Assembly (NCBI RefSeq): GCF_003591005.1
Contig: NZ_QYYD01000027.1
Location: 1 to 64,000 of the forward strand
Length of the DNA stretch: 64,000 nt
From: Rhodopseudomonas palustris
GTDB taxonomy: Bacteria > Pseudomonadota > Alphaproteobacteria > Rhizobiales > Xanthobacteraceae
Direction: 5' to 3'
Below, in pieces: positions 1-48,063 of the stretch; positions within the stretch are counted from its first letter, which is position 1; every line of letters starts with the position of its first letter. Made by a program: the position numbers and the translations under genes. The notes under the pieces were generated by a model. It had not been told where the DNA came from and made no database searches. It was given only the letters and a program-made list of their open reading frames with translations.

Positions 1-92
1 TAACCCCCCACCCCCGCCCCCTCCCCCCCCCCCCCCCCGGCCCCCCCCCCCCCCCCCCCCCCCCCGCCCCCCCCCCCGCCCCCCCCCCCCCC
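1..92. repeat. Poly-C low-complexity run at the window edge
   Basis: Almost pure cytosine with a few interspersed g, a and t. Nothing else in the window resembles it. A tract like this at a sequence end is most likely a sequencing or assembly artefact; a real homopolymer tract cannot be excluded from one strand of consensus. Confidence 0.8.
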
Positions 93-232
93 GGGGCGCG
101 CGCCCTGGGCGCGCGAACCCGGAATCCCGACGTGATAAGTACGACCTGGCTCGCCCCGCATGTCGGGATTCCAGGTTCGCGCGCCAACGGGTCCAGCCTT
201 CGGCCGGCCCCTTCGGCCCGCCCCGGAATGAC
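93..232. repeat. Degenerate family-A palindromic repeat
   Basis: Contains the arms gaacccggaatcccg and cgggattccaggttcg and ends in cgccccggaatgac. These are the signature pieces of the CATTCCGGGGCG...CGCCCCGGAATG repeat seen complete at 1731, 3071, 5161, 24849 and 50609. The left arm is lost in the poly-C edge. Confidence 0.6.
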
Positions 233-274
233 TCGCGGAGGGGCGATGCAACGTTCGCTCGCGTAGAGAGGCTC

Positions 275-359
275 GTAGCCCGGGTGAGCGCAGCGAGACC
301 CGGGGAGCATTGCGCGGCGGTACATCGGTCCCGGATGTCGCTGCGCTCATCCGGGCTAC
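275..359. repeat. Family-F palindromic repeat (gtagcccggg...cccgggctac type)
   Basis: Begins gtagcccgggtgagcgcag and ends with its imperfect reverse complement, ctgcgctcatccgggctac, about 85 bases overall. It lies just downstream of the DUF2336 gene (which is read leftwards) and can fold into one long hairpin. Confidence 0.65.
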
Positions 360-374
360 AGATGAGGCACGGAA

Positions 375-1550
375 CTACGCCGCCATCCGCTCGAGCCGCG
401 AGACGAAATTCTCGGCGATCAGGTCGTCGCACAAGGCGCTGGCTTCTTCGCGGGCGGATTCGGTGGCGAAGCGGCGCAGCAGAATGAGCAGCGGCGCGGC
501 GGCGTCTTCGCTGGTTTCGCAGCGGGTCAGCACGCGTTCGACCATCAGCCGGCGCAGATGCGCCGCGCCTTGCTCGCTGCCGACGTACCCGATCTCGTGG
601 ATCGCCTCGATCGCGGCGCGGAACGCCGCGAACGTCGTCTGCGGCAGCCCGGCACGCGACAGCAACGCGCTGATACTCGTGCCGCGGCGATCGTGCAGCA
701 GCGCGCCGACGCGGGCGAGCGGCAGACCTGATAGTTCGGCCAGCGCGTGCTCGAACAATTCGAGATTGCCGGACAACAGCGCGCGCAGGATCAGCCCGGT
801 GGTGAGCTGGCCGGTGGCGCGCAGATGCTGCATCAGGGCACACATGTCGTCGCCGCGCGAGCGTGCTGCGACCGCAACGGTCGAGCGATCGACCGCCTCC
901 GCAGTGGCCCGTTCGGCGCGATCGGCCGACAGCCAGCCGCGCGCGACGACGAATTGCTGCAGCGTGCCGGCGAGTTTGGCGACCAGCGCCAGCCGCGTCG
1001 CGGCCGGCAGATCCTCCAGCACCAGCATCGACTCGCGGATCGCCGCGAGATGGCCGTGGCGTTCGACGATGCGATCCCACGAGAACGGCGCCAGCTCGGC
1101 GTGGGGATTTTCGATCAGTTCGAGTGCGGCGGAGGCGCAGCCGACTTCCGCGATCGCCGCGCAGACCGAGGCCGGCAACCGGACCCGGCGCGCCACCGCG
1201 CATTGCACCGCGTCGTCGCCGGTAGCGACGAGGTCGACCAGGTCGGCGTCGATCAGCAGCGGCGAGAATTCCAGCACCGGCGCAGCCACCGAGGGCTGAT
1301 CGGCCGCCAGCGCGCGCACGATCGCGGCCGGCGCCTGCGCACTGCGTGAGAAAACTTGCGCCATCGCCTGGCGCACCAAGGGGGAGACGTCGTCGAGCAT
1401 CAGCAGCAGCGCGCCTTCGGCGGCGGCGCGATCGTCCGAGGACAGATCGGAGATCAGCCAGGCCCGCGCCAGCGCCCTGGTCGCCTCGGCGCGCTCGCTC
1501 GCGGGTGCGTGACGGATCCAACTAATGAACTGCCGAACGATCATGGCCAT
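375..1550 (-). CDS. DUF2336 domain protein
   Basis: A 391-residue soluble alpha-helical protein with repeated leucine/alanine-rich helices and no signal peptide or membrane segment. The pattern (HEAT-like helices, 'DDVSPLVRQAMAQVF' near residue 55, 'IVRALAADQPSVAAPVLE' after it) is that of the DUF2336 family, which is confined to alphaproteobacteria and has no established biochemical activity. It starts at an ATG. A near-CtrA box (TTAA-N7-TTCA) lies about 60 bases upstream, so cell-cycle or motility-linked expression is possible. Monocistronic by position. Family assignment is by recognition only. Confidence 0.75.
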   Translation of the reverse strand: MAMIVRQFISWIRHAPASERAEATRALARAWLISDLSSDDRAAAEGALLLMLDDVSPLVRQAMAQVFSRSAQAPAAIVRALAADQPSVAAPVLEFSPLLIDADLVDLVATGDDAVQCAVARRVRLPASVCAAIAEVGCASAALELIENPHAELAPFSWDRIVERHGHLAAIRESMLVLEDLPAATRLALVAKLAGTLQQFVVARGWLSADRAERATAEAVDRSTVAVAARSRGDDMCALMQHLRATGQLTTGLILRALLSGNLELFEHALAELSGLPLARVGALLHDRRGTSISALLSRAGLPQTTFAAFRAAIEAIHEIGYVGSEQGAAHLRRLMVERVLTRCETSEDAAAPLLILLRRFATESAREEASALCDDLIAENFVSRLERMAA

Positions 1551-1610
1551 TCCGGCTGAGTGACTGACGCGATCACCTGACGCTGTGTCACCATTCGTAA
1601 ACCATGCGGC

Positions 1611-1625
1611 TTAACAAAGGGTTCA
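1611..1625. promoter_or_regulatory. Near-consensus CtrA box upstream of the DUF2336 gene
   Basis: Reads TTAA-CAAAGGG-TTCA, one mismatch from TTAA-N7-TTAA. It lies 61-75 bases upstream of the start at 1550. One of five such sites in this window; weaker than the perfect copies at 3025, 26742 and 36530. Confidence 0.35.
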
Positions 1626-1730
1626 CTATGATACAGTTGAGGAATGGTTAAGTTCAGACGTTGTTAACCGGCAACCGAAAACGCCACGAGCTGCTGTTCC
1701 AGCGGGAAGCTTGACATGGCCTCTCCGCGA

Positions 1731-1850
1731 GTCATTCCGGGGCGACCGCCGCGCAGCGGCGGGCGAACCCGGAATCTCGCGCGGTGAAGCACGGTGCACA
1801 ACAACATCGGGATTCCGGGTTCGCTCGCTACGCGAGCGCCCCGGAATGAC
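1731..1850. repeat. Family-A palindromic repeat, copy 1
   Basis: Starts gtcattccggggcg and ends cgccccggaatgac, with inner arms gaacccggaatc and gattccgggttcg. About 120 bases, intergenic, between the DUF2336 gene and the lytic transglycosylase gene. The outer and inner arms are complementary, so the element can fold into a long branched hairpin. Confidence 0.85.
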
Positions 1851-1927
1851 GTGCTCGGGGCTGACGGCGCGTTGGCGTAGGTTGCGGCGCGTGGGCTCGC
1901 TGCGCTTTGCCAAACCTAGGGAAGTGA

Positions 1928-2947
1928 TCAGCTCGCGAAGCTGCCGGTGCGGTCGCTGAACAAATCGAGCGGGGTTGGGGCGCGGACGGTTGGCGCGTAG
2001 GACAGGCCGGGCATCGCTGGCGCCGCGGATGCCGGCGGCGCGCCGACGGGCGTCACCGGGTTGGTCCACAGCTGCTGCACGGCCGGCGAGATCGGCTCGT
2101 TGCGGTCGCCGCCGAGGAACAGGGTGCGGAACATCGGCTCGCTGCTTTGCTGCGTCGGCGACGGCGTCGCGCTTCCGCCGCTGGCCGGGGCGACGTGGCG
2201 CACGTCCGGAAAGCTCGACAGATAAGCGGCGTTGTCGACCGGCGCCGCGGCCAGCACCAGCGGCGCGCCGCCGGCGGCGACCAGCGCGCTCTGCGTCGCC
2301 GGCGAGTTCGCCGCGGAATTGTAGCGTGCGCTGAGATTATCGTAGACCTGCGCGACGCTGCGGGCGTTGCCGGTGCGGTCGTAGAAGATCGATGGATTGG
2401 CGGCGGCGGCGCTGGGAAACAGCGATGCGGCGACCGCGTTCGGACTGTCCTGCGCGGTGCCGATCAGCTTGGCGGCGCCGCCGGCGCCCATGAAATGCGC
2501 CATGTACAGTTCAGCGTCGCTCGGGCGGCGGCCGAGCTCGGCGGTGAGCTTCGAACTATTGGACTGCGTCAGCGCGCCGGCCATCGCCGAACTGATCACC
2601 GGATCATTACGCAGATCCATGATGGCCTGCTTGGCCGCCGGATCGCTGACCGAGTAGCTGCCGGACGGCGACTTGCTGATCGCGTCCGCATAGGCGCCGT
2701 AACCGAATTGCGCGCCGGCTTCCTTGACGGTGCCGAGCCAGGTCTGATCGATGAACTGATACAGGCCCTTGGCCGACGAGGTCGACGCCGCCGCCTGCGG
2801 GTTGAAGTCCGACTCCATCTTGGCGGTGGTGAGCAGGTATTCGAAGCTGGCGCCGGTCGCGCCGGCGGCCTGCTTGATGGCGCCGGCGATCCTGCTGCGG
2901 GCCTGATCGACGATCGTGACCGCGGATGTGACGATGTCGGCCGACAT
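1928..2947 (-). CDS. Lytic transglycosylase (SLT domain)
   Basis: A 339-residue protein read from ATG 2947. Upstream in-frame codons add 13 residues without a better ribosome site. Residues about 30-150 form an SLT/lysozyme-like domain: the probable catalytic glutamate is E45 in 'TAKMESDFNP', followed by 'SSAKGLYQFIDQTWL' and a later 'YMAHFMGAGGAAKLI', as in peptidoglycan-cleaving transglycosylases. The C-terminal 150 residues are proline/alanine-rich and probably disordered. No classical signal peptide is seen, which is usual for alphaproteobacterial members that act with secretion, flagellar or pilus assembly. A perfect CtrA box lies 78-92 bases upstream of the start, arguing for cell-cycle control. 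Confidence 0.85.
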   Translation of the reverse strand: MSADIVTSAVTIVDQARSRIAGAIKQAAGATGASFEYLLTTAKMESDFNPQAAASTSSAKGLYQFIDQTWLGTVKEAGAQFGYGAYADAISKSPSGSYSVSDPAAKQAIMDLRNDPVISSAMAGALTQSNSSKLTAELGRRPSDAELYMAHFMGAGGAAKLIGTAQDSPNAVAASLFPSAAAANPSIFYDRTGNARSVAQVYDNLSARYNSAANSPATQSALVAAGGAPLVLAAAPVDNAAYLSSFPDVRHVAPASGGSATPSPTQQSSEPMFRTLFLGGDRNEPISPAVQQLWTNPVTPVGAPPASAAPAMPGLSYAPTVRAPTPLDLFSDRTGSFAS

Positions 2948-3024
2948 AACGGAGCCCCCGCTCCCCGAGCGCATAGCGCGCAGCATGTCTGCGCGGACTG
3001 CGGCCGACCCTGCGGCGGTTATGG

Positions 3025-3039
3025 TTAACGGGGGGTTAA
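3025..3039. promoter_or_regulatory. Perfect CtrA box upstream of the lytic transglycosylase
   Basis: TTAA-CGGGGGG-TTAA, an exact match to the alphaproteobacterial CtrA consensus TTAA-N7-TTAA. It lies 78-92 bases upstream of the transglycosylase start. Consensus is established knowledge; use at this gene is inferred. Confidence 0.55.
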
Positions 3040-3070
3040 TCCGAGGTCGAAGTCCCTTTGCCCCACACCG

Positions 3071-3187
3071 TCATTCCGGGGCGCGCCTCTTGGCGCGAAC
3101 CCGGAATCCAGAGGTTGTGGAAACGCCGGAGTCGCAGAACCCATCGAGATTCCGGGTTCGCTCGCTGCGCGAGCGCCCCGGAATGAC
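3071..3187. repeat. Family-A palindromic repeat, copy 2
   Basis: tcattccggggcg at the left end and gcgccccggaatgac at the right end, with inner gaacccggaatcc and gattccgggttcgctcg. Sits between the transglycosylase promoter and the 3' end of hisI. Confidence 0.85.
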
Positions 3188-3220
3188 GTGCTTGGGGGTT
3201 AGAAGAAGGAAACGGCGTCG

Positions 3221-3667
3221 CTATTTGCCGTACACCTTGTCCGGATCGAACTGCCGCTCGGCATCGACCTTCGTCAGCAGCGGCTCGCCAGAGGGGTCAC
3301 GGTCGATGCGGCGGTAGAAGCAAGACATGCGGCCGGTGTGGCAAGCGGCGCCGCCGGCCTGGTCGACCTTGATCCAGACCGCGTCCTGGTCGCAGTCGAT
3401 CCGCATCTCCAGCACCTTCTGGACGTGGCCGGAGCTCTCGCCCTTCTTCCACAATCGCTTTCGAGAACGGCTGTAGTACCAGGCGTCGCCGCTCTGGATG
3501 GTTTTCTCCAGCGCTTCCGAGTTCATATGGGCGACCATCAAGACGTCGCCTGAACGCGCGTCGGTGGTGACGCAGGTGATGAGGCCGGCCGCGTCGAATT
3601 TCGGACGCAGCGCGATGCCCTCCTCGACGTCGTCGAGCGCGGGCGCTGAGCCGGCAGATGAAGTCAC
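3221..3667 (-). CDS. hisI: Phosphoribosyl-AMP cyclohydrolase
   Basis: Histidine biosynthesis enzyme opening the purine ring of phosphoribosyl-AMP; cytosolic, zinc and magnesium dependent. The 148-residue chain carries the family signatures: 'VLMVAHMN', '[19 protein letters not shown]', the acidic metal site '[13 protein letters not shown]', and '[12 protein letters not shown]' with zinc-binding cysteines. It is a stand-alone HisI without the HisE pyrophosphohydrolase half. GTG 3667 is preferred over TTG 3673 because an AGAGGA site sits at the right distance only from the former. It follows folE on the same strand with about 30 bases between, so the two probably share a transcript. Confidence 0.95.
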
Positions 3668-3695
3668 GGGCAATTCCTCTCGCAGAACCGCCGAC

Positions 3696-4385
3696 TTAGC
3701 GGTGGTTGCGAATCATCGACATGAACCGCGCCTGCTCCGCCGGATTGTCGCGGAACATGCCGGTGTAGCGGCTGGTGAAGGTCGAGGCGCCCTGCTTGCC
3801 GATGCCGCGCACCGACATGCAGGTGTGCTCGGCCTCGATCATCACCGCGACGCCGCGCGGCTTCAGCACCTCGTCGATCGCCGCGGCGATCTGCGCGGTG
3901 AGATGCTCCTGGGTCTGCAGCCGGCGGGCAAAAATCTCCACCAGCCGCGCCAGCTTCGACAGCCCGACGACGCGCTCGACTGGCGTGTAGGCGATATGCG
4001 CCTTGCCGTAGAACGGCATCACATGGTGCTCGCAATGCGAGGTGAAGCTGATGTCGCGGACCAGCACGAAGTCGTCATAGCCGGCCGTCTCGCCGAAGGT
4101 GCGGTCGAGCACTTCGGCCGGGCACTGGTGATAGCCCTGGAACAATTCGTCATAGGCCTCGACCACCCGGCGCGGGGTGTCGAGCAGGCCTTCGCGATCG
4201 ACGTTCTCGCCGATATAGGCGAGCATAGTCTTGACCGCGGCCTCGGCCTCGGCGCGCGATGGCCGCGGCTGATCGGGCTGCACCGCGACGGCGAGGAATT
4301 CCGACGGGTCGAGCTCGGCGGGCTGAAAATCGGAGCGGGCCTCCGGCAGCTTGCCGGTCCGCAGCGGCTTGATCTTGGCGTCCAT
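3696..4385 (-). CDS. folE: GTP cyclohydrolase I
   Basis: Converts GTP to dihydroneopterin triphosphate, the first step of tetrahydrofolate synthesis. The 229-residue protein has the GCYH-I core in its C-terminal two thirds: '[18 protein letters not shown]' and '[15 protein letters not shown]' supply the zinc-binding Cys/His/Cys, and 'QEHLTAQIA' is the conserved helix. The start is ATG 4385 (MDAKIKPL); the frame stays open far upstream but that stretch is non-coding and overlaps the opposite-strand scaffold gene. Upstream of hisI on the same strand and divergent from the scaffold gene. Confidence 0.95.
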
Positions 4386-4649
4386 CTTCACTCCGTTCGA
4401 CCGGCCTCCAGGGCCGGATGTGTCACCGGGCAGACGGGCGGCCGATCGCCTTGCGTCTTGATCCCTTCGGCAGGCCGGCTTGCGCAAGTCGCTGCGCGGG
4501 CTCGGCTTCGCCAGTTTTGCCGGCGGTTTCGCGCCGCGGCCAGACTGTTTTTCACAGCCTTGCGTCCTATATAAGATGAGACGCCGGGACCGCCAAGACA
4601 GCTCCGCCGAATCCTCGGCGGCGGACGGGCCGGCCCGGAATCTCCGCGC

Positions 4650-5105
4650 ATGCTGAACGACATCTACAACAAGCGAATCATCGAGCTCGCCGGCAATATT
4701 CCGCGGCTCGGCCGCCTGCCCGATCCCGACGCCACCGCCACGGCTCACTCGAAATTGTGCGGCTCGACCGTCAAGGTCGACCTCAAGATGGACGGCGACA
4801 CGGTCAGCGACTTCGCCCACGAGGTCAAAGCCTGTGCACTCGGCCAGGCGTCGTCCTCGATCATGGCGAGCCACGTGGTCGGGTCGACCGCGGCCGAACT
4901 GCGCGCGTTGCGCGATTCGGTGCGGGCGATGCTGAAGGACAACGGCGCGCCGCCGGCGGACGGCAAGTGGGCTGACATCGCCGTGCTCGAACCGGTCCGC
5001 GACTACAAGGCCCGCCACGCCTCGACGCTGCTGACCTTTGACGCCGTGGTCGACGCGATTGGTCAGATCGAAGCCAAGCGGCAGGGCGCGGAGGCGACGG
5101 CTTAG
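4650..5105 (+). CDS. NifU/IscU-like iron-sulfur cluster scaffold protein
   Basis: A 151-residue protein of the IscU/NifU N-terminal fold, expected to hold nascent Fe-S clusters for delivery to apoproteins. Two ligand cysteines are visible: '[10 protein letters not shown]' near residue 37 and '[14 protein letters not shown]' near residue 62. At the position of the third cysteine the sequence reads '[11 protein letters not shown]', with histidine instead. The lineage-specific form seen in rhizobia-like genomes appears similar, so this is probably a functional variant rather than a broken gene. Divergent from folE. Its exact role (general Isc/Suf scaffold or specialised carrier) cannot be fixed from sequence. 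Confidence 0.85.
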
Positions 5106-5160
5106 CCGTTTAGTCCAGGGTAGGTCGCCTTGCCCGCTTTTGCCCACCGCCTCTCCGCGA

Positions 5161-5281
5161 GTCATTCCGGGGCGCGGCGCGCAGCGACGCGAACCCGGAA
5201 TCTCGCAGTTGTGGAAACGGCAGGGTCCCAGAACAACGTCGGGATTCCGGGCTCGCATCAAGGGGCACGCCCCGGAATGAC
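5161..5281. repeat. Family-A palindromic repeat, copy 3
   Basis: gtcattccggggcgcgg at left and cacgccccggaatgac at right, with inner gaacccggaatctcg and cgggattccgggctcg. Lies between two convergent genes, where the hairpin could serve as a bidirectional terminator. Confidence 0.85.
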
Positions 5282-5306
5282 TCGCGGACAAGGTAGCGCG
5301 AACCCG

Positions 5307-6203
5307 CTAATGCCCCGGTGCCGGCGGCTGGCTTGGTGCCGTGCCGCCCGTCGGCAAAGCTGCTTCGGCGGTCTTGGTCGGCGCGGTCGGGGCCTGAACG
5401 AAGCGGTCCTGGACCGGCTTGGGACCGGCGGCGACCGGTGTCCTGGTCCCCTCGCCCTGTTGCGGCAGTAAGTCGGCGAGCGCCCCGGTCGTCACCAGAT
5501 TGGCCTCGGCGAGTTCCTGCGCCGACATCCGGTGCAAATCTTCCCATGGCGCCACGCTGAGCGCGAGCTGAAGCAGGTCGCCGGTACCGCCCATGTCGAA
5601 GGTGTACTTGGTCAGCCGGCCGATATCGCGCTGGATGATGGTGAGGTCCTGCGCGGTGTAGCTGGCGGCGCGGGCGTCGTCGGCGCGGTCGCCCATCCAG
5701 ATCTGATGCACGCGGACCCGGGCGCCATCGGGCACGTAGCGCGTGGTGCCGGACAGCAGCAGGAACACACACATCGATTCGCAATAAGCTTCGGGCACGA
5801 TGCTGGCGCGCATCCCCGCCGGGGTCCGGGACTGCACGCTGGTGCCAACCGTCGTCCGCAACCCCATTTTTCGCCAGCGCCGGCCGAGCGTGATTGCGTC
5901 GTTGACGGAGCCGCCGCTCGAATCCAGCACCAGCGCGGCGCCCTGGAGCGATCGATCGCGAGCGAAGGCATCGAAATCCTTCGGAGTGTCGGCGGTGACG
6001 ATCCCGACGGCGGTGATCCAGCCGCCGCAATTCGGCTCGCAGGCAACCCAATCGAACCGCATCGGCAATTTGCGCGCTTCAAGCGTGCCGCCAGCTTTGG
6101 CGAACTCCACGGGGGCCGACGCGGCACTGATCAATACCAGGCCGAGAGCCGCCGCGCGAAGCAGCGCGGATCGAGCGAACCGGGACAAGACAGCGGCGTT
6201 CAC
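5307..6203 (-). CDS. Secreted ClpP/crotonase-fold protein (COG3904 type)
   Basis: A 298-residue exported protein: an N-terminal hydrophobic signal segment (residues about 8-30, ending 'SAASA') precedes a ClpP-like domain. 'ALVLDSSGGSVNDAITLGRRWRKMG' resembles the serine-protease ClpP strand/helix unit and 'AYCESMCVFLLLSGTTR' holds the conserved Cys/Ser region of COG3904 predicted periplasmic proteins; 'VRVHQIWMG' may contribute the histidine. The C-terminal 60 residues are Pro/Ala/Thr-rich. GTG start at 6203 has a strong GAGGAGG site 5-11 bases upstream. Substrate and proteolytic activity are unproven for the family. Confidence 0.75.
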   Translation of the reverse strand: MNAAVLSRFARSALLRAAALGLVLISAASAPVEFAKAGGTLEARKLPMRFDWVACEPNCGGWITAVGIVTADTPKDFDAFARDRSLQGAALVLDSSGGSVNDAITLGRRWRKMGLRTTVGTSVQSRTPAGMRASIVPEAYCESMCVFLLLSGTTRYVPDGARVRVHQIWMGDRADDARAASYTAQDLTIIQRDIGRLTKYTFDMGGTGDLLQLALSVAPWEDLHRMSAQELAEANLVTTGALADLLPQQGEGTRTPVAAGPKPVQDRFVQAPTAPTKTAEAALPTGGTAPSQPPAPGH

Positions 6204-43553: not shown

Positions 43554-44408
43554 ATGCCGAGCTTCAAAGACCTGTTGCGCGCGCCGTTCGTGTGGCGCGC
43601 CCGCGCGCTGGACCGCGCCGTCGCGAGCCGCGACGTGCCGACGCTGGCCGTCGTCGCGATCTTCCGCGAGGAAGCCCCGTTCCTCGACGAATGGCTGCGC
43701 TTCCACGAAGGCGTCGGCGTCGGCCACTTCTATCTCTATAACAATTTCAGCACCGACCATTTTCGCGACGTGCTGGCGCCGTGGATCGCGCGCGGGCTGG
43801 TGACGCTGACCGATTGGCCGGTCGATGTCGGGCAGCTGCCGGCGTATCGGCACTGCATCAAGCAGCACCGGCTCGACGCCAAATGGATGGCGTTCATCGA
43901 CATCGACGAGTTCCTGTTCTCGCCGGTGGCCGACAAGGTCACCGACGTGCTCGGCCGCTTCGACGGCGCGCCGGCGGTTGGGGTGTTCTCGCCCTATTTC
44001 GGCTCCGCCGGGCACGAGCAGCGCCCGCCGGTGCCGATCACCCGCGCCTTCACCAAGCGCTCGCCGCTGTCGAAAATCTCCGCCAAGACCATCGCCAACC
44101 CGCGCTGGATCCGCGCCATCCGCAACGTGCACCTCTACAAATACTGGCGCGGCGAAACCATCGATACGAGCGGCCGCCCGTTCGACGGCGATCGCCCCGT
44201 CCTCGACCTGCTCCGCCTCAATCACTACTGGTCACGCTCGCTATCCGACCTGCAAACCAAGATCCAACGCGGCGACGCCTCGACCCCCGTCCCGCGCGAC
44301 AGCGACTGGCACTTCGCCGCCGAAAAGGACATGAACGCGGAAGACGATACGTCGATTTTGCCGGTGCTGGAGAGGGTGTTTGGGAAGGGAAAGACACTCT
44401 ACCCCTAG
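43554..44408 (+). CDS. Glycosyltransferase family 92 (GT-A fold)
   Basis: A 284-residue protein of the GT92/DUF23 type. 'TLAVVAIFREEAPFLDEWLRFHEGVGVGHFYLYNN' is the family's N-terminal strand-helix block and 'KWMAFIDIDEFLF' contains the D-x-D motif binding nucleotide-sugar and metal. 'LLRLNHYWSRSL' near residue 215 is the conserved C-terminal histidine segment. It probably transfers a sugar to cell-surface glycan; acceptor unknown. Last core gene before the AT-rich island on its right. Confidence 0.9.
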   Translation: MPSFKDLLRAPFVWRARALDRAVASRDVPTLAVVAIFREEAPFLDEWLRFHEGVGVGHFYLYNNFSTDHFRDVLAPWIARGLVTLTDWPVDVGQLPAYRHCIKQHRLDAKWMAFIDIDEFLFSPVADKVTDVLGRFDGAPAVGVFSPYFGSAGHEQRPPVPITRAFTKRSPLSKISAKTIANPRWIRAIRNVHLYKYWRGETIDTSGRPFDGDRPVLDLLRLNHYWSRSLSDLQTKIQRGDASTPVPRDSDWHFAAEKDMNAEDDTSILPVLERVFGKGKTLYP

Positions 44409-44562
44409 CCATCCCTTCCCTTTGGCAAACGCTGCAATCGAATTGCGACTGACGTCTGAACAACTAATACTATTGGTCAACAAATGCCAAGGCCACACAA
44501 ATTGCTTCCATGAAGCACATGTGTATTCTTTCGCTGTTCCTTTACAGCGATTGAGCTACTCC

Positions 44563-46287
44563 GTGACTACCACATCATCAACATACACTAGCTACGCAGA
44601 CGCGATATTCGCAGCTAAGCGTGGTTTTGTTGTGATTGGACTAACTGGTTTCACGGGATCTGGATGCACAAAAACCGCTGAAATCCTAAAGAAAGACAAG
44701 GCTTTTTCACTCCCACCTGCGTACGACGACAGAGCGTCTTCGACAGATCAGCTCGCATCCCTGCAGTATAAAAACCTGAGGCGAATTTGGAATCAGACAC
44801 CTTGGCATTCTTACACTGCAATTGAAGTCGCCGTTGTGATTATGGCTTTACTTCTAGAACAGGCACTCAAAGGTGAACGACCGCAAGGCTTTCCGGACGA
44901 AGTCAGTACCGCAGCAGACGCAAACGTTAGCAAGCTGGAATCACTGACGCTTCTCCGCCGTCCAGGCTCTATGAGCCAGGACGAATGCCATCAACTAATC
45001 GAGTCTTATGAAGAGTCCGCAAACATTTTGCGTGGAATTAAGAAGGCCATCCCGCTCGGTCAGTTCATTTCGATGATGCAGCAAGCTGGTGACAAAATCC
45101 GCCTATATGGCGGCTATCGAAGCTACACACCTCACCCTGATCACATGATCGTGCTTCCCGAAGCGATGCGTAAGATCTTGCGCGCCTATCGTACGGCCCA
45201 AGCACGCCGCCGATTTGTTATCGATGCTTTTAGAAATCCGTTTGAAGTCGAATATTTCAAACGACGCTATGCAGAATTCTACCTTGTTTGCCTTTATCGA
45301 TCTCCAGAAAACCGCGGCCGATCGCTAGCAATGAGAATGCCGCGAGGTGAAATCGAGAGCATCTGGGAAAAGGAGAGCGGACGCCATCCAGCCGACGGCC
45401 GAAGCGAAACCGATATTCCGAAAAATAGAGAGAACATTGCCTGGTGGATCACTGGACAGGATATTCCCGCATGCGCCCAGAAGGCAGACGTTTTCATTAG
45501 TCCCAGAACAGGCGAACCCGTGCATTTAAAATATCAAATCGCCCGATTACTCACGTTAGTTCACAAGCCAGGCTCTCTCACACCTAGCAGAGATGAGCAT
45601 TCTATGCAGATTGCCGCGACAGCGAGAAGAATGTCCGGCTGCCTTTCTCGACAGGTTGGCGCAGCGGTGGTCAGTCCCTCTGGATATGTCCTAGGCATCG
45701 GATGGAACGATCCTCCCGACGGGCAAATCCCTTGCTCTCTTCGATCCTGTGAGGGTCTTCTAGAGGTGAGCGAGACTAACAATCGGGACTACAGCGATTA
45801 CGAGAAGGCCGAACGTTTCCGACAACATATCGAACTAAAGAATGGCGGAGAAACCCCGTTCTGTTTTCGCTCGGAGCTTGCTCTCATCCTGAAAGAGCGC
45901 AAGGCAGAATACACTCGAGCCCTCCACGCAGAAGAAAACGCGTTTCTCCAGACTGCTAAAATGGGTGGCGTTTCTCTTGTCGGCTCAACGCTTTACACCA
46001 CAGCCTCAACCTGCACCCTTTGTGCTAAGAAGGCGTATCATTTGAGGATCGAGCGCATCGTATTTATCGATCAGTACGACGACATGGCTCGCGATCAAAC
46101 TCTCCGCGGGGGGCACTACAATATCACTTATGAACAGTTCGAAGGCATTACGGGCGCGGCTTATTGCAGTTTGTATTCGCCTCTGATTCCCGAGAAAGAT
46201 TTACTCGAGGATTTCGGAACTGGGCAGAAATCGAACGCGGAATCTTGCTTACCTGGCCAACCTCCTACCGAAGGACATTCAGAGTGA
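44563..46287 (+). CDS. Anti-phage dCTP/dC deaminase-like protein (P-loop plus deaminase)
   Basis: A 574-residue protein from GTG 44563; TTG 44551 is an alternative start and there is no in-frame ATG nearby. Residues 20-75 hold a kinase-like P-loop, 'IGLTGFTGSGCTKTAEIL', in which Cys35 replaces the usual Walker A lysine. Residues about 350-520 are a deoxycytidylate-deaminase fold: 'MSGCLSRQVGAAVVS' and 'GIGWNDPPDGQ', then zinc and catalytic residues His455-Ala-Glu457, and Cys484 and Cys487 in 'TTASTCTLCAKKAY'. This P-loop-deaminase architecture is that of the published anti-phage deaminases, which deplete dCTP in infected cells; the assignment is by architecture only. The DNA is clearly AT-richer than its neighbours and lies between a glycosyltransferase gene and a tRNA gene, suggesting transfer. 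Confidence 0.85.
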   Translation: MTTTSSTYTSYADAIFAAKRGFVVIGLTGFTGSGCTKTAEILKKDKAFSLPPAYDDRASSTDQLASLQYKNLRRIWNQTPWHSYTAIEVAVVIMALLLEQALKGERPQGFPDEVSTAADANVSKLESLTLLRRPGSMSQDECHQLIESYEESANILRGIKKAIPLGQFISMMQQAGDKIRLYGGYRSYTPHPDHMIVLPEAMRKILRAYRTAQARRRFVIDAFRNPFEVEYFKRRYAEFYLVCLYRSPENRGRSLAMRMPRGEIESIWEKESGRHPADGRSETDIPKNRENIAWWITGQDIPACAQKADVFISPRTGEPVHLKYQIARLLTLVHKPGSLTPSRDEHSMQIAATARRMSGCLSRQVGAAVVSPSGYVLGIGWNDPPDGQIPCSLRSCEGLLEVSETNNRDYSDYEKAERFRQHIELKNGGETPFCFRSELALILKERKAEYTRALHAEENAFLQTAKMGGVSLVGSTLYTTASTCTLCAKKAYHLRIERIVFIDQYDDMARDQTLRGGHYNITYEQFEGITGAAYCSLYSPLIPEKDLLEDFGTGQKSNAESCLPGQPPTEGHSE

Positions 46288-46396
46288 CGTCGCGCATGCA
46301 ATCTTCTGGAGCAGCAAAATCTCAGCCTTTTAAATGGACGTAGAACATCGCAGCTGCGTGGTCGGAAATCGGCGATCCAAAGATCGCTCAGCCAAT

Positions 46397-46483
46397 TGGT
46401 GCGGACGGCGGGGGTCGAACCCGCACGACGTTGCCATCGAGGGATTTTAAGTCCCTTGCGTCTACCAGTTTCGCCACGTCCGC
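46397..46483 (-). tRNA. tRNA-Leu (anticodon TAA)
   Basis: 87 bases, with acceptor arms GCGGACG/CGTCCGC, discriminator A and an encoded CCA 3' end (46397-46399 complement). The anticodon loop reads CTTAAAA between AGGGA and TCCCT, giving TAA (codon UUA). The long variable arm is of the leucine type and the T loop is GGTTCGACC. Its 3' end faces the AT-rich deaminase gene. Confidence 0.97.
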
Positions 46484-46890
46484 ATCGGCGCAGTCAGCTC
46501 AATCGAGCGAGCGACATCGTCTGAACGGGAGCAAGCCGAGGCGGCCCCCATCATTCGATGCCGCAGCGCATCATGCCGACGGCCGGCTCGGGGCGGCAGC
46601 GCAATGCCTGCTTCCGCGCCAGAGCGCCGCATTCATAGTCGAGCGCGCGGCGCAACGCAAAGCGGGGTTGCGGCGGCGACGCAGCTTCGCCGGCCGCGCG
46701 CTTTGACATCACCCCCGACTTTCGAGTGAGATGCGCGCAGTGCCTGCATGCTCGGGCGCGGTCGGCTGCAGCGGTGCCCCTGGACGTTGTCCAACCCACC
46801 CTGGCCGCCTCGCAACTTCGGTCTGAAGCCTTGCATGCGGCGCGCCGACACGTCCCGCCTCAACCTGCGACCGCAAGGGTAATCCCTCAC
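46484..46890. other. Intergenic stretch without a recognisable gene
   Basis: About 400 bases between the tRNA gene and the M20 hydrolase. No coding region is convincing. It must hold the tRNA promoter (right side) and the hydrolase promoter. Confidence 0.5.
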
Positions 46891-48063
46891 ATGCCGACCA
46901 TCGACCGCATCGACGCTTTCGCCGACGAGCTGACCGCGATCCGCCGCGATCTGCACATGCATCCGGAGATCGGCTTCGAGGAAGTCCGCACCTCCAATAT
47001 CGTCGCCGAGAAGCTCGACCAATGGGGCATCGAGGTGTTTCGCGGGCTCGGCGGCACCGGCGTGGTCGGCGTGCTGAAGGGCAAGGGTGACGGCGGCCGC
47101 CGTATCGGCCTGCGCGCCGACATGGACGCGCTGCCGATGGAGGAGCACACCAACCTCGGCTGGCGCTCGACCATTCCCGGCCGTTTCCACGGCTGCGGCC
47201 ATGACGGCCACACCACCATGCTGCTCGGCACCGCGCGCTATCTCGCCGAGACGCGCAATTTCGACGGCACCGTGCATTTCATCTTTCAGCCCGCAGAAGA
47301 AGGCCTCGGCGGCGCGCGGGCGATGCTGAAGGACGGGCTGTTCCAGAAGTTTCCGTGCGACGAACTCTACGGGCTGCACAACGCGCCCGACCTCGCCCAT
47401 GGCGAGATCGCGATTCTGCCCGGCCCGGCGATGGCCGGCGCCGACTTCTTCGACATCACCATCTCGGGCTACGGCGCGCACGGCGCGATGCCGGAGCGCT
47501 CCAAAGATCCGGTGGTGATCGCGATGACGCTGGGCCAGGCGCTGCAGACCATCGTCAGCCGCAACGTCGATCCGCTGCATTCGGCGGTGCTGTCGATCAC
47601 CCAATTCCATTCCGGCTCGGCCTACAACGTGATCCCCGGCGAAGCGCGGCTCGCCGGCACCGTGCGCTGCTTCTCCGACGACATCCGCAAGCTGGTGCGC
47701 GAACGCATGCGGGCGCTGGCGGCGGGCATCGCCGCGGCGTTCGACGTCGAGATCCACGTCGATATCCGCGACATCTTCAGCGTACTGGTGAACCAGCAGG
47801 AGCAGAGCGACGTCGTCGCCGAGGTGGCGCGCGGCGTCGTCGGCGACGCCAACGTCAAGCTGCGCGAGCAGCCGAAGATGGGCAGCGAGGATTTCGCCGA
47901 CATGCTGCAGGCGATCCCTGGCGCGTATTTCTGGGTCGGCCACGACGGCGACGTGCCGGTGCACAATCCCGGCTACGTGCTCGACGACAAGATCCTGCCG
48001 ATCGGCGCCAGCATGTTCGCCCGCATCGTCGAGACCCGCCTGCCGGTGGCCGCCAATGTCTGA
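46891..48063 (+). CDS. M20-family amidohydrolase (hippurate hydrolase type)
   Basis: A 390-residue zinc-dependent hydrolase of N-acyl amino acids. 'IRRDLHMHPEIGFEE' opens the fold; 'GRFHGCGHDGHTTMLLG' and 'FIFQPAEEGLGGA' supply the metal cysteine/histidine and glutamates; a dimerisation lid domain ('ITISGYGAHGAMPERSKDPVV') is inserted at about 180-290. The amidase gene begins inside the last codons. Substrate by family: hippurate, N-acetyl amino acids or similar. Confidence 0.93.
   Translation: MPTIDRIDAFADELTAIRRDLHMHPEIGFEEVRTSNIVAEKLDQWGIEVFRGLGGTGVVGVLKGKGDGGRRIGLRADMDALPMEEHTNLGWRSTIPGRFHGCGHDGHTTMLLGTARYLAETRNFDGTVHFIFQPAEEGLGGARAMLKDGLFQKFPCDELYGLHNAPDLAHGEIAILPGPAMAGADFFDITISGYGAHGAMPERSKDPVVIAMTLGQALQTIVSRNVDPLHSAVLSITQFHSGSAYNVIPGEARLAGTVRCFSDDIRKLVRERMRALAAGIAAAFDVEIHVDIRDIFSVLVNQQEQSDVVAEVARGVVGDANVKLREQPKMGSEDFADMLQAIPGAYFWVGHDGDVPVHNPGYVLDDKILPIGASMFARIVETRLPVAANV

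Follow-up and report, generated by a model that had tools for sequence, protein, structure and literature searches.

The window analysed here is a stretch of 64,000 nucleotides from Rhodopseudomonas palustris (contig NZ_QYYD01000027.1). It carries an insert of about 2.0 kb (44389..46396) between the last bases common to the glycosyltransferase genes of relatives and the 3' end of a tRNA-Leu(TAA) gene (46397..46483, minus strand), which is an integration hotspot of the genus. The left border is formed by the glycosyltransferase gene (43554..44408, plus strand; PF01697/PF13704), and a conserved neighbour of the M20 peptidase/amidohydrolase type (46726..48063, plus strand) lies to the right of the tRNA. 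Inside the insert are an AT-rich leader of 154 nt with stable stem-loops (44409..44562, plus strand), which is not common to the relatives, and a P-loop/deaminase fusion gene of 574 aa with a GTG start (44563..46287, plus strand). As the tRNA gene is on the minus strand its 3' end faces the fusion gene, which ends 109 nt away from it. The GTG at 44563 is a provisional start codon because in-frame TTG codons occur further upstream; the alignment of the copy in G014, another genome of the genus, begins at this same point.

The sequence-only reading of this DNA had described a P-loop domain followed by a deaminase with intact HAE and Cys-x2-Cys motifs, in a gene AT-richer than its flanks, and both descriptions hold. 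The P-loop motif GLTGFTGSGCT (44638..44670, plus strand) occupies residues 26-36, with Cys35 at the position of the Walker A lysine. The HAE zinc/catalytic motif (45925..45933, plus strand; residues 455-457) and the zinc motif T-C-T-L-C (46009..46023, plus strand; residues 483-487) are in frame, the latter with Thr where most relatives have Pro, and both the HAE and the zinc ligand pair Cys484-x2-Cys487 are intact. Residues 342-501 match the deaminase family PF00383 with 55.5 bits (Pfam cut-off 25), while the Pfam scan gave no match at cut-off for the P-loop half. The GC content of the gene is 50.6%, roughly 7.6 sd below the mean of 65.9% (sd 2.0, minimum 59.8) for equal windows of 1725 nt outside the insert.

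To place the insert, its borders were searched in 15 other genomes of the genus. The glycosyltransferase gene has a nearly full-length DNA match in nine of the 15, is part-deleted in G002 and has no DNA match in G001, G003, G012, G013 and G014; it does form the left border, but the label of a core gene that it had been given was too generous. The M20 gene has strong DNA matches in 13 of the other genomes and weak or split ones in G001 and G003, and the site was compared in these 13 (G013 in part). G007 and G011 were excluded from the breakpoint comparison as their tRNA is interrupted. In all 11 loci compared, sequence shared with the window begins again at the 3' end of the tRNA (46395-46397), and on the left it ends at 44380-44388 in nine of ten loci and at 43775 in G002. 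Horizontal acquisition had been proposed, subject to comparison of the locus in other genomes, and was to be given up if the gene lay at the same place in all close relatives. The deaminase gene was found at the tRNA-Leu site of none of the 13 relatives, and all 15 other genomes of the genus lack it there, which together with the low GC content supports the proposal. In the insert itself a search for ungapped repeats of at least 12 nt showed no duplicate of the tRNA 3' end, the open reading frame list showed no integrase frame, and no other defence gene is present; partial extra copies of the tRNA occur at the site in four of the 13 genomes (G005, G007, G011 and G015). With neither a duplicate nor an integrase in the insert, integration at the tRNA is evidenced for the relatives' site, not for the window's element, and the earlier description of the tRNA as a usual integration point is upheld for the genus.

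When the protein was searched against defence-system profiles, as had been suggested, the PADLOC dCTPase profile (PDLC02373) matched residues 13-550 with 351.9 bits (E 2.2e-105). The NCBIfam scan gave no hit at cut-off to any model of a housekeeping family, and the protein was thus not placed in a housekeeping deaminase family, the outcome that the earlier reading had named as counting against it. The whole of the NCBIfam profile NF041025, 'anti-phage dCTP deaminase', was matched with 280.4 bits, 120 bits short of its curated equivalog cut-off of 400. The claimed kinship with published anti-phage deaminases is upheld by the PADLOC match but, by the NCBIfam cut-off, is weaker than stated, and judged by these profiles the window protein is kin of the published anti-phage enzymes, outside the curated equivalog. 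In a scan of ten proteins NF041025 scored 478.7 and 466.5 for two short-form proteins (from a Klebsiella plasmid and locus L011), 377-433 for four other long-form proteins, and 266 (L071, intact), 222 and 256 (two partial members) for the branch to which the window protein belongs. The profile spans 523 residues in the window protein and about 431-441 in the two short-form proteins. The best PHROG match was phrog_8118, a family of unknown function (257.9 bits), and PHROG dCMP deaminases also match the deaminase half.

AvcD proteins are described, in parts of PMC10511110 and PMC9455884, as dCTP/dCMP deaminases that limit phages. With these anti-phage dCTP deaminases the window protein shares the order of a kinase-like P-loop domain then a zinc deaminase in one chain (seen in the PADLOC match, PF00383 and the alignment), the catalytic residues and a patchy distribution; it differs in having Thr before Cys-x2-Cys, and an RNA partner is unsupported. 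It aligns over nearly its whole length, at about 30-35% identity, with long-form proteins from Pantoea, Aeromonas, Geminocystis, Pseudomonas and others, and the P-loop GLTGxTGSGC is common to it and the long-form plasmid and genome proteins. In sequence searches of the PDB no fusion protein was found; the hits were deaminase chains, to which the profile search added two of a kinase-like type. In the collection of papers searched, none joins 'dCTP deaminase', 'defense system' and 'Rhodopseudomonas'.

The family is sparsely distributed around the window. Within the genus, eight of 16 genomes gave a match at E 0.001, six of them over residues 453-509 only, and the long form is present in two, the window's own and G014, where it lies on another contig and not at the tRNA-Leu site. 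In wider, overlapping samples of genomes, matches at stricter limits were obtained in three of 391 for the bacterial family (the window's own, G014 and one 29% partial match), three of 397 for the order (its own and two 30% partial matches) and six of 398 for the phylum, its own included; for the class only its own was recovered among 385 (E 1e-30). Alignment queries found relatives in genome and viral contigs where single-sequence scans returned none. At least 535 relatives were detected on genome contigs, the highest identity being 39% among the best 80 of these, and five plasmid records cover at least 80% of the query. In IMG/VR 23 of 80 loci are near full length, none of these above 33% identity, and of the 964 phage records that match none does so over 80% of the query. 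A tRNA neighbour was seen in the fetched flanks of four of 60 genome-contig loci; such neighbours are not a habit of the family.

The sequence-only reading had pointed to Cys35 as a possible mark of altered nucleotide binding. The Cys is indeed at the Walker A Lys position, but it is not peculiar to this gene, being found there in 84 of the 87 long-form rows that have the P-loop region (85 others, the window and L071); the three exceptions have X, S and K, the K in a poorly aligned row. The two short-form proteins have Ile (Klebsiella plasmid protein) and Val (L011), and so the Walker A Lys is absent from the anti-phage dCTP deaminase/AvcD short-form rows looked at, as it is from the window protein. 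Elsewhere in this half, Asp221 and Glu228 are identical in 92 of 92 rows, Arg224 is present in 88 with Lys in the other four, and Arg251 is nearly invariant (63 rows). The family profile reaches the AdkA-type kinases 3lw7/3h0k in the PDB search, and AAA_18 matches 30 of 63 family members, the window protein not at cut-off. Phosphoryl transfer normally needs the Walker A Lys. The domain may thus be able to bind nucleotide, but phosphate transfer by it is improbable. In a section of PMC10853773 it is proposed that DndF, which belongs to a different defence system, senses nucleotides through a derived kinase domain. The missing lysine is the rule across the long-form rows examined, and raises the testable question of whether the kinase-like half is a nucleotide sensor.

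In the deaminase half, the HAE motif (with H455 and E457) and C487 are the same in all 92 aligned rows, which include two duplicate pairs, and C484 in 91. The sole exception is a Geminocystis plasmid protein with Trp for the first zinc Cys. The gene for this variant adjoins that of a dGTP triphosphohydrolase, another dNTP-depleting enzyme (L016, 3335-6857). A quick tree of the deaminase half (91 rows, rooted on the two short-form proteins) pairs the window protein with a fragment from G014 (support 98) and L067 with L071 (99), while the remaining 85 long-form rows form a group of their own (support 82) that excludes both pairs. These four proteins appear to branch early in the long-form family, in a little-sampled part of it, though the long outgroup branches leave the root uncertain. 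In each of the four the first zinc Cys is preceded by Thr (Thr483 in the window), where 82 of the 85 other long-form rows have Pro; the PCxxC motif by which dCMP-type deaminases are defined in part of PMC12088426 therefore does not occur in the window protein. The branch also differs from the other long-form rows at residues 447-450 and 504-508. In most long-form proteins the zinc HAE region is preceded by NQVH, and the other two stretches read P-C-E-L-C and D-P-Y-P-G-I; the window protein has K-A-E-Y, T-C-T-L-C and D-Q-Y-D-D-M in their place. Some of these differences are probably ancestral, as Glu-Tyr-x-Arg ahead of the HAE region is common to the window and short-form proteins. As the active-site surroundings (447-450, 483, 485 and 504-508) are unlike those of most long-form relatives, the substrate may differ too.

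The closest relative found with an unbroken frame is that of L071, from Candidatus Magnetaquicoccus, with about 40% identity. It shares the early branch and the Thr-Cys zinc motif with the window protein; it follows BREX genes, however, while the window gene stands alone. In L071 (Candidatus Magnetaquicoccus inordinatus, 5-5668) pglZ, brxL and the deaminase gene stand in one row, and the deaminase gene starts on the last base of brxL, one base being common to both. L066 also shows brxL, with a deaminase the same as that of L071. No second link between BREX and a deaminase was found in 117 loci whose flanks reached a few kb at most (phmmer with PglZ/BrxL, E 1e-6), and a term search of a 2026 BREX survey (PMC12839542) shows 'deaminase' solely in the reference list. 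It is conceivable, though doubtful, that proteins of the early branch act on a different cytosine nucleotide, for example a phage-modified one, with the lysine-less kinase domain as an infection sensor and the member in the BREX row as a nucleotide-depleting arm.

The window gene, a member of the P-loop/deaminase fusion family, probably provides anti-phage defence by itself and was probably brought in horizontally at the tRNA-Leu hotspot. The case for defence is made by the PADLOC and NF041025 matches, the catalytic residues, the patchy distribution and the plasmid and IMG/VR settings of relatives, and also by the position of L071 beside brxL and by the defence-like genes that relatives carry at this tRNA. 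Weighing against it are the score of 280.4 below 400 bits, phrog_8118 as the top PHROG, the differing active-site surroundings, the lone gene in the insert, the tRNA neighbours in just four of 60 loci and the split copies in G014 and G559. Published relatives deaminate dCTP and dCMP and act on infection, being held by RNA in AvcID, according to passages of PMC10511110, PMC9455884 and PMC12409362. Kinship and the catalytic residues make deamination of dCTP/dCMP likely here. The protein would be idle in healthy cells, and its kinase-like domain, without the Lys for phosphoryl transfer, would bind a nucleotide or other infection signal as a sensor. On infection the deaminase would convert dCTP/dCMP to dU nucleotides, and the loss of dC nucleotides would starve phage DNA synthesis. 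We infer the trigger and the substrate, and likewise the anti-phage activity, from the sequence and its relatives.

An alternative means of control is suggested by the leader. The window protein could be the toxin of an AvcID-type (type III) toxin-antitoxin system, with a leader RNA antitoxin that binds the deaminase until infection stops transcription. In sections of PMC10511110 and PMC12409362 the AvcI RNA is described as lying beside avcD, as needing at least about 171 nt, as just under 300 nt long and as lost on infection. In favour of this reading, the window leader folds well (z -3.2 for 172 nt from 44409; the 170 nt that precede the start codon give -3.65). However, it has no match by DNA search in the 15 other genus genomes, making it unique among the 16, and none in Rfam, and the folding of the G014 leader is no more stable than that of shuffled sequence (z -0.04). 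The mean z of 90 family leaders (among them that of the window, those of two short-form rows, and duplicates) is -0.72, against -0.80 for 213 control leaders, 17% of either set fall under z -2, and seven of the 90, window included, are at or below -3.2; this test is blunt, as about a third of the 90 overlap an upstream frame and even the short-form (AvcD-like) loci L011 and L012 have leaders of unremarkable folding. Some pairs of related loci resemble each other in their upstream DNA, and leader alignments gave three invariant columns for ten leaders and 12 for six, with one block in four of ten. An AvcI-like RNA in the leader is thus unsupported by the folding of relatives' leaders, that of G014 included, by Rfam and by the DNA search, and we consider the AvcID-type system unlikely.

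It is quite improbable that the gene is instead a metabolic dCMP/dCTP deaminase of a former mobile element, which served the thymidylate supply of that element and not defence. Phage T4 dCMP deaminase is a metabolic enzyme. The deaminase half (residues 348-508) aligns with its structure, PDB 1vq2 (E 2.9e-9), and resembles the PHROG dCMP deaminases, and long-form relatives occur on the 23 IMG/VR contigs. Yet the chain of 1vq2 has 193 residues and lacks the kinase-like domain, the fused domains and the PADLOC match of the window protein speak for the defence family, none of the matching phage records covers more than 80% of the query, and the 2-kb insert shows no evident gene for phage replication. 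That the gene is a decaying remnant without present function is very unlikely, since its 574 codons are read without interruption, every catalytic residue is in place and all four branch sequences have the Thr-Cys variant, even though the insert lacks an integrase frame, the zinc motif lacks its usual Pro and the G014 and G559 copies are split. These two copies (L065, 3874-5587, and L067, 894-2586) each consist of two overlapping frames, which may be due to decay or to assembly error.

Read as anti-phage, the locus is not unusual in kind, being a defence-type gene of foreign appearance that lies at a tRNA hotspot. What goes beyond the routine is the absence of the P-loop lysine in the long-form family, together with the early branch and its unusual zinc motif. 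To this branch the locus adds an intact, near-basal member of the long-form tree, which the NCBI defence model would leave unnamed at its cut-off.

The cargo of the tRNA-Leu(TAA) site varies between genomes of the genus. It was scanned with ten chosen proteins each for Pfam and PADLOC (nine common to both), taken from frames between the borders. PADLOC identified TerY-P proteins in G011 (459, 195 and 401 bits), PDC-S04 (248 bits) and SoFic (78 bits) in G005, and SoFic in G008 (149 bits). The G011 proteins form a TerY-P type trio of kinase, PP2C and TerY (L060, 2663-7295), with an adjoining transposase-like frame noted by eye, and in G015 a PDC-S28 candidate defence helicase is present at the site (L063, 2581-5151; 960 bits in PADLOC). 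The cargo of G006 and G014 includes nSTAND proteins (37 and 36 bits; Pfam cut-off 34) with weak PADLOC matches; these are long HTH-nSTAND ATPase frames beside the tRNA (L053, 2550-6869; L062, 2011-6300) and candidate defence proteins. The G002 cargo protein had no match in Pfam or PADLOC. The site is therefore a place to seek candidate defence genes, such as those for nSTAND, PDC-S28 and Fic proteins. In G007 an integrase lies beside the tRNA, and four of the five proteins scanned are integrase, terminase, tail or internal virion proteins. They belong to a prophage-like stretch of about 42 kb, with the integrase, located within the same tRNA-Leu gene (L054-L056).
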